Shown here piece after piece: positions 48,590-53,845 of a stretch of DNA of 64,000 bases. The stretch covers positions 248,001-312,000 of the forward strand of contig NZ_CP042829.1 of NCBI RefSeq assembly GCF_008838325.1. The letters run 5' to 3'. This DNA is from Tepidiforma bonchosmolovskayae. GTDB taxonomy: Bacteria > Chloroflexota > Dehalococcoidia > Tepidiformales > Tepidiformaceae. The stretch's first letter is position 1. The number at the start of each line of letters is the position of its first letter. The position numbers and the translations under genes are program-made. Under the pieces are notes generated by a model, which saw only the letters and a list, made by a program, of their open reading frames with translations, made no database searches and was not told the origin of the DNA.

Positions 48590-48614
48590 GCGGGCGCCGG
48601 GGCGGAGGCCCGGG

Positions 48615-48751
48615 CGGCAGCGCAAAGAGGGGGCGAAGGCGGCAAACGTCAGCGACCGGCGCCGCGCCCGGGCGACAAGCGCGAGAATGACCGCGGGCGG
48701 CAGAAGGTAGGCGGCGAAGCCGATGTAGAAGAGCGTTTCTTCCGGGCTCAC
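48615..48751 (-). other. possible coupled single-span membrane protein, end not defined
   Basis: GTG at 48751 overlaps the stop of the preceding cytochrome-like gene as GTGA and opens with VSPEETLFYIGFAAYLLPP, then a hydrophobic helix and a basic RARRRS stop-transfer. The frame has no stop until 47396, running antisense through the whole 3' part of the M3 peptidase. Either a short gene whose end is altered or chance read-through; only the first 45 codons look natural. Confidence 0.25.
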
Positions 48752-49395
48752 TGCATGTGCTGGCGCGGAACGTGGCGGGCGCGGTGGGCGGCGACCCAGT
48801 CGCGGGCGAGGAAGCGGAGGTAGGCCGCGCCGAGGAGCGAGCCGACCGAAGCAGTGTAGACGACGTGGGTGACCCAGTGTTCGGTGTCGCTGCCCGCGGC
48901 GACGCCGGGGGCGAGCCCGAGCGCGAACGCGGCGTAGCCGAAGCGGTGAAGGCGTTGCCAGACCGTCCGCGGGATTAAGCCTGCGAGCCAGGTCGAGAGC
49001 ACGACCGCGGCTAAGAGCCAAGCTGCGATGACGCCCGCCGCAACCGCGACCGGGCGGTAGGGCGCGGTGAGGGGTACAAGAGCATCCCATGGGGCGAAGC
49101 CGATGTACGGGTCGAGGACGAGGGCGCCGGCGTGGGCAACGGTGTAGGCGAGCCCGAGCGACCCGGCCACGCGATGCAGTTCGAGGGCCGGGACCCGGCC
49201 TTCAATCCCGGGGTGGTACCTCAGACTCACGCCGATGCCGGTGAAGACGGCAGCCCAGAGCAACACGAAGGCGGCCCAGGCGGAGGCCCGGGCGGCATCC
49301 CAGGTCGTGGTCTCGCTGCCGAACCCGGCCTCGCGGGCCAGGAACACCGCAGCAGCGAGAACGACTGCCAGCGTGACGGTTATCCAGCGCGTCAT
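48748..49395 (-). CDS. ferric-reductase-like transmembrane cytochrome b protein (copy B)
   Basis: 215 residues, about six spans, ferric reductase-like/MsrQ-type fold. Candidate haem ligands are His74 (LELHRVAG), His88 (VAHAG) and His150 (RLHRFGY). At the fourth position, equivalent to His164 of copy A, it has Pro163 (LAPGVAAGSD). It is a paralogue of the gene at 49778, sharing the pattern ELHRV, DP-I-F-P, LTAPYRP, LHR, AAGSDT. Its ATG overlaps the upstream linker-protein stop by 1 bp. Confidence 0.8.
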   Translation of the reverse strand: MTRWITVTLAVVLAAAVFLAREAGFGSETTTWDAARASAWAAFVLLWAAVFTGIGVSLRYHPGIEGRVPALELHRVAGSLGLAYTVAHAGALVLDPYIGFAPWDALVPLTAPYRPVAVAAGVIAAWLLAAVVLSTWLAGLIPRTVWQRLHRFGYAAFALGLAPGVAAGSDTEHWVTHVVYTASVGSLLGAAYLRFLARDWVAAHRARHVPRQHMQ

Positions 49396-49694
49396 CAGCT
49401 CGATCTCGACCGACGTGTTGGGGCGGCGGTCGGCGTCGCGTCGGCGCCGCCCGACGGCGGGGTAGTCCCGGCGGCGAGCGGGGTCGGCGACGGCGTGGAC
49501 GCCGCAGGGCCGCCGGGGACAGCGGTGGCTGCGGTCGGGGGAGGGCCCGGGTCTTCGTTCTTGCCGGTCTCACCGGTCCAGGTGCCGTATGCGGCCCAGC
49601 CGATTGCGAACGCAGCGACCGAAAGAGCGGAAGCGGTGAGGGTCAGCCAGCTCTGGTGTTCGCGTGCGAAGGGGGGCGAGCGGCGATTTGGCAT
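49395..49694 (-). CDS. single-span membrane protein with Pro/Ala/Thr-rich tail (linker B)
   Basis: 99 residues from ATG 49694 (MPNRRSPPF); an upstream ATG at 49715 would add seven. One membrane span (about 18-40) is followed by about 60 residues of low-complexity Pro/Thr/Ala/Gly, likely extracytoplasmic and disordered. Same plan as the protein at 50410. It precedes a ferric-reductase-like gene with a 1-bp overlap, so the pair forms one module. Confidence 0.6.
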   Translation of the reverse strand: MPNRRSPPFAREHQSWLTLTASALSVAAFAIGWAAYGTWTGETGKNEDPGPPPTAATAVPGGPAASTPSPTPLAAGTTPPSGGADATPTAAPTRRSRSS

Positions 49695-49777
49695 GGGAAG
49701 ATGGTAGCGGCGCAAGGTCTCTGGCCGAACGGCCAGGCGGGGCAGAAAGGACCGCCGTTCGTCGGGAGCCTCGCCGG

Positions 49778-50413
49778 TCAGCGGCCGGCAACAGCGGCGG
49801 CGCCCTCAGGCCGGATGCGGCCCGGCAGCCGAAGCATGAGCATCCCGGCGATGCAACCCGCGCTCAGTCCGTACCAGGCGAGGAAGAGCGGTCGGCCGGT
49901 ATCGCTGCCGGCGGCCATCGCGTGGAGGAGAGCGAGGAGGTACCCCGGGAATGCCAGGCGGTGAAGATTGAGCCAGGTGGCGTAGAGGAAGCGCCCGGCA
50001 AACGCGGTCGTGAGCGTGACGATGCCCAGGGCCCAGGCAGCGAGGGCACCGGCGAAGAGCGCGAGCGGCCGGTAGGGTGCGGTGAGGCCGGTGACGATAT
50101 CGAGCGGGCCGAAGCGTATCCAGGGGTCGACGAGGACGGCGGCAAGGTGCCCGGCGAGGAAAGCTGCGGCCAGGACGCCGGTGACGCGGTGCAGCTCAAA
50201 AAGCCCGGACTGCCTGAGCCCGGGGGCGCCGAGGCGCAGGTAGAAGGCCATCCCGGAGAGAGCGGAAAGCCAGAAGAGCACGTAGGTGACTATCCCGGCG
50301 GCGCGGAGCAGGTGCCAGGTTTGCGCCGAGGACGCAGCCGGGCCATAGCGGGTGAGCGCAACCGCTGCGAGCAGTGCGGCGACGGCGTACGCGCCGAGCT
50401 TCCAGGAGGTCAT
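49778..50413 (-). CDS. ferric-reductase-like transmembrane cytochrome b protein (copy A)
   Basis: 211 residues from ATG 50413; the frame upstream is unrelated. About six spans. Four candidate haem ligands: His75 (FELHRVTG), His89 (LAGHLA), His151 (NLHRLAF) and His164 (LLHAMAAGSD). The layout matches ferric reductase-like/YedZ-MsrQ membrane proteins that pass electrons from quinol or flavin across the membrane. No msrP or FAD/NAD domain gene adjoins. The ATG overlaps the stop of the upstream linker gene. Confidence 0.82.
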   Translation of the reverse strand: MTSWKLGAYAVAALLAAVALTRYGPAASSAQTWHLLRAAGIVTYVLFWLSALSGMAFYLRLGAPGLRQSGLFELHRVTGVLAAAFLAGHLAAVLVDPWIRFGPLDIVTGLTAPYRPLALFAGALAAWALGIVTLTTAFAGRFLYATWLNLHRLAFPGYLLALLHAMAAGSDTGRPLFLAWYGLSAGCIAGMLMLRLPGRIRPEGAAAVAGR

Positions 50414-50784
50414 GAGCCGCGCGACCTCCGCTGCACGGGAACGGTGCCCGGCCGGGTTGACGGGGCGCTGCTCGAGGTGACAGTCGGCGTTGGGGTAGCG
50501 GGGGGCGGCGGGGCTCCGCCGTCGGAGGATGGCGGGGCAGCCGGAACCGGGGTGCGGGAGGGAGGCGGGGCATTCGGAACGGGGGTGCGGGCAGCGGACG
50601 GAGCGGTCGGGTTGGCGGCAGGGGCGGCGAGGGCGGGCGAGGCGGCTGGCTGGCTGCCGCTCGCATCGGTCGCCAGCGCAAAACCGCCCCAGACCGCCGC
50701 GAACGTCGCGAACGCGGCAACGGCCGCACCGAGTTTCAGCAGGGGGTGCCGCTCTGCGGCGAATCGGCGAGGGGGGCTGGACAT
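50410..50784 (-). CDS. single-span membrane protein with Pro/Ala-rich tail (linker A)
   Basis: 124 residues: a basic start (PPRRFAAERHP), one membrane span (about 18-40), then about 80 residues of Pro/Ala/Ser/Thr with repeated RTPVPNAPPPS and RTPVPAAPPSS units. First gene of the four-gene minus-strand cassette. Paralogous in plan to the gene at 49395. Function unknown; a flexible extracytoplasmic tether for a redox partner is one idea. Confidence 0.6.
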   Translation of the reverse strand: MSSPPRRFAAERHPLLKLGAAVAAFATFAAVWGGFALATDASGSQPAASPALAAPAANPTAPSAARTPVPNAPPPSRTPVPAAPPSSDGGAPPPPATPTPTVTSSSAPSTRPGTVPVQRRSRGS

Positions 50785-50950: not shown

Positions 50951-52561
50951 GTGGTCGACGAGGGCGAACGGGCAGTGCTGGACCCGACGGAGCGTCACAG
51001 CCGGCGGAAGCTTCGCCGGCGGGCATTCCTCGCAGCTGCCGGGGGCGTTGCTGCCGGGGGGCTGACCATCGGCACTGCGACGCTGATGAGCGGCGGAACC
51101 GGGAAGCGCAGGGAGCCGGGGGGCAGCCCACCGGAGGGCGAGGCCACGGCGGCGGAGGCCGGCACAGGACCGATCGCCGACCCGTTACGGCGGGCCGCGC
51201 ATCTGCTGCGCCGCGCCGGCTTCGGCGGGACGCCGGGCGAAATCGCGGAGTTTGCATCGCTGACGCCGGAGGAAGCTGCCGATCGCCTCGTCGACTTCGA
51301 AGAAACGGACAACGCTGCACTCGAGCAGCGGATCACGCGGGCGAACTTCAACCTGACCCGGCTGCGGGGCGGAGACGGCCGGCCAGGAATGGCCTCGGAT
51401 ATGCGGGCCTGGTGGCTCACCCGGATGGCCTACACCTCGAGGCCGCTCGAGGAGCGGATGACCCTCATTTGGCACGGGCTGCTGACATCAGAGCTCGGGA
51501 AGCTCGGCATCCCCCGGACCAAATTCATGCTTATCCAGAATGAGCTGTTCCGGCGCATGGCGCTGCCGCGGTATGACGACCTGCTCAAGGCCATCAGCCG
51601 CGACCCGGCCATGATGGTCTATCTCGACACCATTCAGTCCTCTGCGGCCCACCCGAATGAGAACTACGCCCGGGAGCTGATGGAGCTGTTCTCGATGGGA
51701 GTGGGCAACTACACCGAGCAGGATGTGCGGGAGGCGGCGCGGGCCTTCACCGGATGGCGGCTGACGGCGCCGCCGCGGGTGCAGCTCCCGGAGGGTGCGA
51801 GCGAGGCGGAACGCCGGGCGGCGCAGGACGCGGCGGCGGAGGCGTATGAGCCGGAGTTTGTCATCCAGCCCCGCCTCCAGGACCGCGGGATGAAGACATT
51901 CCTGGGGAAGACCGGGCCGTTCGGGGGCGATGAGATTATCGACATCATCATGTCGCATGATGCGCCGTCGCGGTTCATCCCGGTCCGGCTCTTCCGGGAG
52001 TTCGCGCACGCCAACCCGGGGCCCGAAACCGTGACGTGGCTGGCTGAGGTTTGGAACGGGAGCGGCCACGACATCCGCGAAGTCGTTCGGGCCATCCTGA
52101 AGAGTGCAGAGTTCAATTCGGAGGCTGCCTACCGGGCGAAGATCAAGAGCCCGGTCGAGTTCGTGGTCGGCGCGGTGCGAGGACTGGAGCTGGAGACGGA
52201 TTTCCGGGCGACGCTCCGATTCTGGGGACCGATGGGGCAGACCCTGTTCCAGCCGCCCAATGTGGCCGGCTGGCCCGGGGGGCCGGCCTGGCTGGCCTCG
52301 GCAACGTTCTTCGCGCGGCTCAATTTCCTCGATGCGTTCCTCTTCCCGCGAGGACGCCCGCTTCGTATCGAGGCGCTGCTTGCGCGGGAGGATGCGTCGG
52401 GCATGGTCGACGAGGCGCTCAGGCGGCTGGTCGACGGTGTGATGAGCGATGGCGCGCGGGGGGCCCTGGTTGCGCATGCGGAGAGCATCCGGGACCCGGT
52501 GGAGCGCGTCGCGACAGTGGCCTACCTGGTGCTGGCCAGCCCCGAGTATCAGCTGGCCTAG
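50951..52561 (+). CDS. Tat-exported DUF1800-family protein
   Basis: 536 residues from GTG 50951, AGGAGG 9 nt upstream. The N-terminus has RRKLRRRAFLAAAGGVAAGG, a twin-arginine signal (about 19-38), so the protein is exported folded. The rest matches DUF1800: DPLRRAAHLLRRAGFG, LIWHGLLTSELGKL, HPNENYARELMELFSMG and the LFQPPNVAGWPGG end region. Function unknown in the family, which almost always occurs with a DUF1501 partner, here 36 bp downstream. Confidence 0.9.
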   Translation: MVDEGERAVLDPTERHSRRKLRRRAFLAAAGGVAAGGLTIGTATLMSGGTGKRREPGGSPPEGEATAAEAGTGPIADPLRRAAHLLRRAGFGGTPGEIAEFASLTPEEAADRLVDFEETDNAALEQRITRANFNLTRLRGGDGRPGMASDMRAWWLTRMAYTSRPLEERMTLIWHGLLTSELGKLGIPRTKFMLIQNELFRRMALPRYDDLLKAISRDPAMMVYLDTIQSSAAHPNENYARELMELFSMGVGNYTEQDVREAARAFTGWRLTAPPRVQLPEGASEAERRAAQDAAAEAYEPEFVIQPRLQDRGMKTFLGKTGPFGGDEIIDIIMSHDAPSRFIPVRLFREFAHANPGPETVTWLAEVWNGSGHDIREVVRAILKSAEFNSEAAYRAKIKSPVEFVVGAVRGLELETDFRATLRFWGPMGQTLFQPPNVAGWPGGPAWLASATFFARLNFLDAFLFPRGRPLRIEALLAREDASGMVDEALRRLVDGVMSDGARGALVAHAESIRDPVERVATVAYLVLASPEYQLA

Positions 52562-52597: not shown

Positions 52598-53845
52598 ATG
52601 CTCAGTCGAAGGGATTTCATCAAGGGCGGGGTCGCGCTGGTCAGCATCGGGACGACGGCGCAGTCGCTGCTCAAGGGCGCGGTGGCGTTTGCGGCGCAGC
52701 ACGAAGACGCCACGAACCCGGCAGCGGCGGGGCGCATTTTGATTCTTGTGCAGCTTGCAGGAGGCAACGACGGCCTCAACACCGTCGTCCCGGCGGGCTC
52801 CGGCGCGTACCGCTCGGCGCGAAAGACCCTCGCGATTCCCGAGGAAGCGGTGCTGCCGCTGGCGGAGGGCTACGGGCTCCACCCGAACCTTGCGGGGCTG
52901 AAGCGGGCCTGGGATGAGGGCAAGCTGGCGGTCGTGCGCGGGGTGGGTTACCCGAACCAGGATTACAGCCACTTCAAGTCGATGGCGATCTGGCAGGCGG
53001 GCGACCCGGAACTGAAGCTGGACCATGGGTGGCTCGGGCGAACCCTGGAGAAGCTCGAGAGCGAGCAACACGACCCGTTCCTCGGCTTCAACATCGGCAG
53101 TTCGACACCGGCCGAGCTGGAAACGCCGGCGGTGAGCATCCCCTCTGTCCAGGACCCTGCCGACTACGGATTCAAGGTGCGGGGCAAGCCGGCAGACGCT
53201 TCGGAGCCGAGGACGCGGACGTTGCTCAAGCTGTACGAGCAGTACCCGGCACAGTCCCCGTACGGCGTGCTGCTGGAGACCACCGTAGAGGCGGCGGTGG
53301 CGAGCAGTGCAGCGCTGGCGGAGGCGGCGCGCCGTTACCGGCCGGCTGTCGCTTACCCTGAAACCTCGTTCGGCGGGGGGCTGTCGTTGCTCGCAGAGGC
53401 GATTGTCGGGGGGCTGGGGGTCCGGGTCGGGCACATCACCCTCGGCGGGTTCGACACGCACGCGAACCAGGCTGCGGACCACGGGGAGCTGATGCAGGTG
53501 CTTGATGAAGGGCTGACGGCGTTCCAGGCGGACCTGGAAGCGCACGGCCGGGCGGATGACGTGCTGGTTCTCACGTGGAGCGAGTTCGGGCGGAGGGTGG
53601 CCGAGAACGCGAACGGGGGAACCGACCACGGCGCCAGCAGCGTGATGTTTGCGCTGGGGAGCCGCGTGCGCGGGGGGCTCTTTGGTGACCCGCCGAGCCT
53701 CGAGCGACTGGTCGACAACGGGAACCTCGGCTACACGACCGACTTCCGGCGGGTATATGCGACGGTCATCGAAGGCTGGCTCGGGGTGCCGCACGAGGAG
53801 CTGCTCGGCGCGCGCTGGGAGCAGCTGGGGTTCGTCGCGGGATAG
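52598..53845 (+). CDS. Tat-exported DUF1501-family protein
   Basis: 415 residues. Starts MLSRRDFIKGGVALVSIG, a clear twin-arginine signal. The mature protein resembles the alkaline-phosphatase/sulfatase-like superfamily to which DUF1501 belongs: LVQLAGGNDGLNTVVP (about 49-64), NYSHFKSM-type segment, TLGGFDTHANQ and VLTWSEFGRRVAENANGGTDHG (given by its ends), with His/Asp positions that could bind metals. Works with the DUF1800 protein by association; activity is not established. apt begins 23 bp after it. Confidence 0.9.
   Translation: MLSRRDFIKGGVALVSIGTTAQSLLKGAVAFAAQHEDATNPAAAGRILILVQLAGGNDGLNTVVPAGSGAYRSARKTLAIPEEAVLPLAEGYGLHPNLAGLKRAWDEGKLAVVRGVGYPNQDYSHFKSMAIWQAGDPELKLDHGWLGRTLEKLESEQHDPFLGFNIGSSTPAELETPAVSIPSVQDPADYGFKVRGKPADASEPRTRTLLKLYEQYPAQSPYGVLLETTVEAAVASSAALAEAARRYRPAVAYPETSFGGGLSLLAEAIVGGLGVRVGHITLGGFDTHANQAADHGELMQVLDEGLTAFQADLEAHGRADDVLVLTWSEFGRRVAENANGGTDHGASSVMFALGSRVRGGLFGDPPSLERLVDNGNLGYTTDFRRVYATVIEGWLGVPHEELLGARWEQLGFVAG

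Follow-up and report, generated by a model that had tools for sequence, protein, structure and literature searches.

A membrane cytochrome paired with a tagged, disordered tether in Tepidiforma bonchosmolovskayae: a candidate swinging flavin arm

Results

In a stretch of 64,000 nucleotides from Tepidiforma bonchosmolovskayae (contig NZ_CP042829.1, positions 248,001 to 312,000; hereafter the window), two gene pairs lie head to tail on the minus strand at 48748-50784, each encoding a one-span protein with a disordered tail (the tether, or linker) followed by a six-span cytochrome of the ferric reductase type. Each pair probably forms a swinging flavin arm, in which flavin mononucleotide (FMN), attached by ApbE near the C-terminus of the tether, would pass electrons from the cytochrome to acceptors outside. 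Flavinylation, the residue modified, the acceptor and the direction in which electrons move are inferred from what can be read in the sequences, namely the pairing, the four histidines of the cytochrome, a charge-based topology, a conserved C-terminal tag and a linkage to ApbE without its usual substrate. In the source genome (G000), a single contig (C1) of 2.75 Mb, the window corresponds to C1:248001-312000; other genomes (G) and loci (L) are cited by our own numbers.

The tether and its C-terminal tag

The initial annotation had treated the small protein as a mere linker; its conserved C-terminal serine tag, together with the ApbE link described below, makes it the likely flavin carrier instead. 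One-span, disordered, Pro/Ala-rich proteins of this kind were found in ~80 distinct open reading frames (ORFs) from Chloroflexota and one record titled Solirubrobacterales. Among relatives in the order, such a protein precedes nearly every reductase homologue, with a variable tail and a constant C-terminus (RRSRGS, RRTRGS, ARTSRGS, QRASRGS etc.), and a search for joint occurrence of linker and cytochrome across Chloroflexota, as the initial annotation had proposed, recovered the conserved pair in the order and the phylum. As the pair is kept in relatives, the window genes are not chance ORFs. Endings from the class and the phylum included VTRTRGS, GRTRAS, FRTRGS and VRTRSS as well as the glycine forms SSGGS and QSGGS, and some tethers carry 1-3 residues beyond the serine (e.g., ITRSSR).

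For quantification we used 90 one-span, low-complexity ORFs located directly upstream of ApbE or a reductase. The tag was present in 81 of these, as picked by the broad pattern [S/T]-x-x-S at 0-3 residues from the end, a selection that includes a few ORFs that look out-of-frame or dubious; among the nine untagged ORFs are four FMN_bind proteins and two acidic, PepSY-like ones, along with likely ORF artefacts. The strict form [ST][RK][GAS]S terminates 58 of the 81 tails (0.11 expected from tail shuffling), and a terminal serine is found in 65 of them, compared to 10.5 expected from shuffled tails. Within the window, only the two linkers out of 569 ORFs bear the strict tag. The tails span ~40-240 residues and consist of 22% Ala, 18% Pro, 10% Thr and 10% Ser with almost no Cys, and the linkers matched no Pfam or NCBIfam family above cut-off. 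In 79/81 tethers, positive charge is higher on the flank that precedes the span than on the one that follows (means +3.6 vs -1.0), predicting an N-in/C-out orientation.

The canonical motif of ApbE targets is [S/T]-G-A-[S/T], located within domains of the FMN_bind, DUF2271, DUF3570 or flavodoxin-like kind (PMC8238504, PMC11334425). The tag shares the geometry of this motif, with Ser at 0, Ser/Thr at -3 and, in most cases, a small residue at -1, while the glycine at -2 is swapped, mostly for arginine (R/K in 65/81, G in 4/81, as in the ending SGGS). Engineered FMN tags perform best at protein termini, and C-terminal ones work well (PMC12052999), so that a flavin site at the C-terminus is feasible. 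Export of a cytosol-modified tether by twin-arginine translocation (Tat) was considered and rejected: RR occurs before the span in 27/81 tethers and a Tat-like pattern in just 1.

Linkage to ApbE

In most loci of the class and the phylum the genes are arranged as tether-ApbE-cytochrome, each adjoining the next, and this is the usual order outside the family of the window's genome; two further loci (L199, L200) both contain this cluster. Within the order, ApbE was detected in 23 of the 26 genomes with the cytochrome, the three misses being 72-81% complete, and in 0/12 without it. At class level the figures were 37/38 (the exception, G040, being a partial match) versus 33/256 other genomes, a co-occurrence assessed by a Fisher test uncorrected for relatedness, with positives that span ~10 families. 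The single ApbE of the source genome (C1:762421-763215) is located ~3 kb from a third reductase (C1:759179-759754) that has its own tether (tether C). Between the two lie an Asp/His-rich protein, a protein ending in APKKSKGS, and tether C with the ending QRASRGS. The Asp/His-rich protein (L064:9033-9725, minus strand) is exported and possibly metal-binding; several loci of the phylum have a PepSY-like protein with an acidic tail in its stead. The APKKSKGS protein (199 residues; L064:8434-9033, minus strand, near 760.4 kb of C1) represents a second type of tagged protein beside ApbE, and similar SKGS/TKGS/SKAS tails were noticed in G006, G009, G022, G037 and others.

The ApbEs of this clade retain the catalytic signatures HHLIDPRTG, GGD and DLGGIVKG. 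A clade-specific acidic pocket that might receive the arginine of the tag was looked for and not found. All tether-linked ApbEs have a tryptophan at alignment position 226 that none of five FMN_bind-linked ones has, the latter being too few for this comparison to be leaned on. One record titled Solirubrobacterales (Actinomycetota; L122:4785-6537) contains a tether (...PMTTSQS), ApbE and cytochrome beside a two-component system, suggesting that the module may extend beyond Chloroflexota.

Scarcity of canonical ApbE substrates

A search of the source genome for FMN_bind, DUF2271 and DUF3570 returned none, and the latter two are absent from the order. Of the class genomes that encode both ApbE and the cytochrome, 5/37 have FMN_bind, as opposed to 30/33 of those with ApbE and without the cytochrome. 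Given this scarcity, the tether is the one protein found consistently beside these orphan ApbEs. FMN_bind occurs in only five genomes of the order, in four of them beside a second, higher-scoring ApbE. This second type (L032, L033, L035, L036) also looks leaderless, and its partner is an FMN_bind protein with an N-terminal span and a Thr/Ala-rich linker. Four FMN_bind proteins of the order show span, low-complexity linker and FMN_bind domain in the layout of the tether, which may be viewed as an FMN_bind protein whose domain had shrunk to a tag.

The cytochromes

Both reductases contain the landmarks ELHRV, LTAPYRP, LHR and AAGSD, as the initial annotation had pointed out, and align with each other at E = 6e-24. 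The Pfam family Ferric_reduct was matched by reductase A at 2.9e-7, above cut-off, and by reductase B at 0.0015, below the curated cut-off. His75, His89 and His151 are invariant in the aligned homologues, and His164 is kept in all except reductase B of the window, where it is replaced by proline; the other 26 homologues, including the B copies of sister species, keep the histidine. Following the predicted N-in topology, His75/His151 would bind the inner haem and His89/His164 the outer one. An AlphaFold model of reductase A (predicted local distance difference test, pLDDT, 77) comprised six membrane helices (3-23, 29-58, 68-95, 116-137, 144-168, 175-195), for which Foldseek returned STEAP1/2 and SpNOX as nearest structures with probability ~1 and weak E-values (best 0.1); a sequence profile matched SpNOX at 8e-7. 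No domain for flavin adenine dinucleotide (FAD) or nicotinamide adenine dinucleotide (NAD) was found in the 211 and 215 residues of the two proteins, PF01794 being the sole domain above its Pfam cut-off. There was no match to the MsrQ-type NCBIfam model, and no MsrP-type gene adjoins the pairs, MsrP not having been searched for genome-wide. The earlier description as a membrane redox module with neither a FAD/NAD domain nor an MsrP partner adjoining thus held. In one metagenome-assembled genome (MAG; L021:1457-2365, plus strand; G016:C100) the reductase ORF continues, with no stop codon in between, through an additional span to a tail that terminates in RTSRGS, which is either a natural reductase-tether fusion or the result of a stop codon lost on the MAG contig.

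Gene layout in the window

All four genes of the two pairs were found where the initial annotation had placed them, with the short overlaps it had described (4 bp, ATGA, for linker A/reductase A; 1 bp for linker B/reductase B), and 83 bp separate pair A from pair B (Table 1). An alternative TTG start of tether B is possible at 49715. Scans for promoters and terminators gave nothing clear. The initial annotation had overlooked the C-terminal tags of both linkers, the third-gene remnant that follows reductase B, and the haem-ligand histidine that reductase B has lost.

Table 1 Features of the tether-cytochrome pairs and their neighbours (positions in the window)
Feature	Position	Strand	Remarks
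Tether (linker) A	50410..50784	-	124 residues; single N-terminal span, Pro/Ala-rich tail, C-terminus VQRRSRGS; no Pfam family
Tag S-R-G-S of tether A	50413..50424	-	Candidate FMN attachment on last Ser
Reductase A	49778..50413	-	211 residues; six-span di-haem cytochrome b, Ferric_reduct PF01794; His75, His89, His151, His164 present
Tether (linker) B	49395..49694	-	99 residues from ATG; one span, Pro/Ala-rich tail, C-terminus TRRSRSS
Tag S-R-S-S of tether B	49398..49409	-	C-terminal
Reductase B	48748..49395	-	215 residues; paralogue of A, 39% identical
Pro163 codon of reductase B	48907..48909	-	Fourth haem-ligand His position, from alignment
Third small gene, remnant	48590..48751	-	4-bp overlap with reductase B
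DUF1800 protein	50951..52561	+	Divergent, conserved neighbour; candidate extracytoplasmic partner
DUF1501 protein	52598..53845	+	Tat-like signal; conserved neighbour

Copy B and the origin of the tandem

The initial annotation had called the pairs tandemly duplicated, which is accurate for the arrangement and not for a recent event. In the tree, reductase A falls among orthologues that other genera have in single copy, and B forms a separate long branch; a clade of A and B was neither favoured nor rejected (approximately unbiased (AU) test, p = 0.077). A recent A/B duplication is therefore not supported by the tree. The cluster is also present in Tepidiforma flava and in Tepidiforma MAGs, the nearest named relatives that have it. 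Of the genomes of the genus, G000, G022 and G024 contain the tandem, G023 (72% complete) yielded A alone, and G025 and G026 have B without A. In Tepidiforma relatives, reductase B is followed by a third gene of ~67 residues with two spans (MSPEEALFYLGAAAFFLPP...). In the window, homology to this gene stops after ~40 codons, and the distance from its start to the stop of the M3-peptidase gene is 162 bp compared to ~200 bp in T. flava; the gene is thus ~38 bp shorter, indicating a frameshift. Copy B may be decaying or becoming a one-haem form in the source genome.

Neighbouring genes

The genes for DUF1800 and DUF1501 proteins, already singled out as neighbours in the initial annotation, lie divergently beside A-type pairs in eight genomes (G000, G003, G004, G007, G009, G013, G019, G023), DUF1501 having been checked in the longer loci only. 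In a more distant family (G105, L158) they are co-directional with the module in the order DUF1800-DUF1501-tether-ApbE-cytochrome. At other loci of the phylum the tether is preceded by a PepSY-like protein (labelled by inspection) with an Asp/Glu/His-rich tail. The DUF1800/DUF1501 proteins and the acidic PepSY-like proteins are candidates for the acceptor, and an iron-related role is conjecture.

Discussion

We propose that each pair would act as a transmembrane electron exporter whose flavin sits on a flexible arm. With its two haems b, the six-span cytochrome would take up electrons, probably those of menaquinol or of a soluble reductase, and conduct them outward. The tether would be anchored N-in/C-out, its disordered tail ending in [S/T]-[R/K]-[G/A/S]-Ser, and ApbE, encoded at the third copy of the module, would attach FMN to the serine of the tag. 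The tethered FMN could then swing from the outer haem to extracytoplasmic acceptors such as ferric iron, acidic/His-rich partners or the DUF1800/DUF1501 proteins. In a more general form, we are inclined to think that these tethers make up a class of flavoproteins without a flavin-binding fold, in which a Ser at the tip of a disordered, membrane-anchored tether, or close to it, bears the FMN. They would be served by a subclass of ApbE whose C-terminal motif is relaxed and tolerates Arg, and would act as swinging electron arms for a di-haem cytochrome in Chloroflexota and probably some Actinomycetota.

Several observations weigh against this proposal. The window tags SRGS and SRSS do not fit the canonical motif D-x-x-[S/T]-G-A-[S/T]; the tag in general is without the Asp, and the canonical Gly, whose change to Ala alone halves flavinylation (PMC12052999), is almost invariably replaced by Arg/Lys. 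The window pairs are not adjoined by ApbE, and since the sole ApbE of the genome is located at the third copy, they rely on an enzyme encoded elsewhere, if on any. Reductase B of the window is short of one haem ligand, and the model of reductase A has weak Foldseek E-values and a pLDDT of 77. Furthermore, an evident signal peptide was seen in 0/85 of the ApbEs, a poor fit with an exported C-terminus. Four span-anchored FMN_bind proteins of the same phylum also adjoin leaderless ApbEs, so that leaderlessness does not single out the tether; as the puzzle is shared, flavinylation before export would be the simplest assumption.

The departure from the canonical motif at Gly and the Arg-rich character of the tag would also suit a scaffold or docking subunit, whose Arg/Ser tag would bind as a peptide ligand to the cytochrome or to ApbE, with ApbE modifying some other protein. 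The few, mostly incomplete, cytochrome genomes without an ApbE match point in the same direction. However, no other ApbE substrate family, of those searched, was found in the source genome, and the S/T-x-small-S spacing at the extreme C-terminus suits an acceptor motif better, so that we hold the docking role to be rather unlikely. The absence of leaders from all 85 ApbEs of the clade, along with the lack of a FAD/NAD domain in the cytochromes, would be in agreement with a tail that is flavinylated but cytoplasmic, the arm feeding the inner haem from cytosolic reductants in place of that domain. This arrangement appears distinctly unlikely to us, as the charge bias of the flanks predicts the C-terminus to be outside and as FMN_bind proteins with the same anchor likewise stand beside leaderless ApbEs. 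Finally, the window could harbour an ordinary ferric-reductase-like cytochrome and, beside it, a small membrane gene of no relation, both copied in tandem; the occurrence of PF01794 cytochromes near ApbE has been described before (PMC8238504), and signs of decay are seen in copy B. The small gene and its tag are, however, kept with the cytochrome across Chloroflexota, which largely refutes this explanation and leaves it highly improbable.

Should the swinging flavin arm be confirmed, covalent flavin carriers would need no fold, the ApbE motif would be widened, swinging-arm cofactors would gain a covalent flavin counterpart, and many 'hypothetical' Pro/Ala-rich proteins would be assigned a role. 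According to Meheust et al. (PMC8238504), 670 genomes with orphan apbE are left over, and ApbE substrates of lower prevalence must still await identification; the tagged tether is a concrete and widespread candidate for these. Lacking a domain, it would be overlooked by domain-based searches, just as the leaderless ApbE would be overlooked by signal-peptide filters. Searches of the open-access literature returned no account of ApbE substrates of the C-terminal or tether type.

Comparison with known systems

The initial annotation knew of no described system with this plan. Yet the module is a widely conserved variant of the ApbE-associated 'MsrQ-like' electron-transfer systems (Meheust et al. 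2021, PMC8238504), in which the FMN-binding domain has been replaced by a C-terminal tag, and the tether with its tag is the novel part. Both share the six-span PF01794 cytochrome with four histidines (bis-His) and an extracytoplasmic flavin carrier, which in our case is putative. The MsrQ-like cytochromes cluster with apbE; in the source genome, apbE is missing from the window pairs and found near the third copy, and it is directly adjacent in most loci of the class and the phylum. The MsrQ-like systems employ an FMN_bind carrier with [S/T]GA[S/T] and often an NAD-binding domain on the cytochrome. Here, by contrast, neither an FMN_bind, DUF2271 or DUF3570 substrate nor any other folded domain was found, its place being taken by a disordered tether with C-terminal [S/T]-[R/K]-[G/A/S]-S; the cytochrome has no NAD domain, and ApbE is leaderless. 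The DUF2271, DUF3570 and flavodoxin-like substrates (PMC8238504, PMC11334425) are likewise distinct from FMN_bind and were found via the genomic context of apbE, but unlike the tether they are folded domains with the canonical motif. MsrPQ (YedYZ) contains a related membrane cytochrome, whereas the module matches no MsrQ-type model and adjoins no MsrP gene. The nearest solved folds, NOX, STEAP and SpNOX, share the two pairs of haem histidines and differ from the cytochromes described here by their FAD/NAD dehydrogenase domain.
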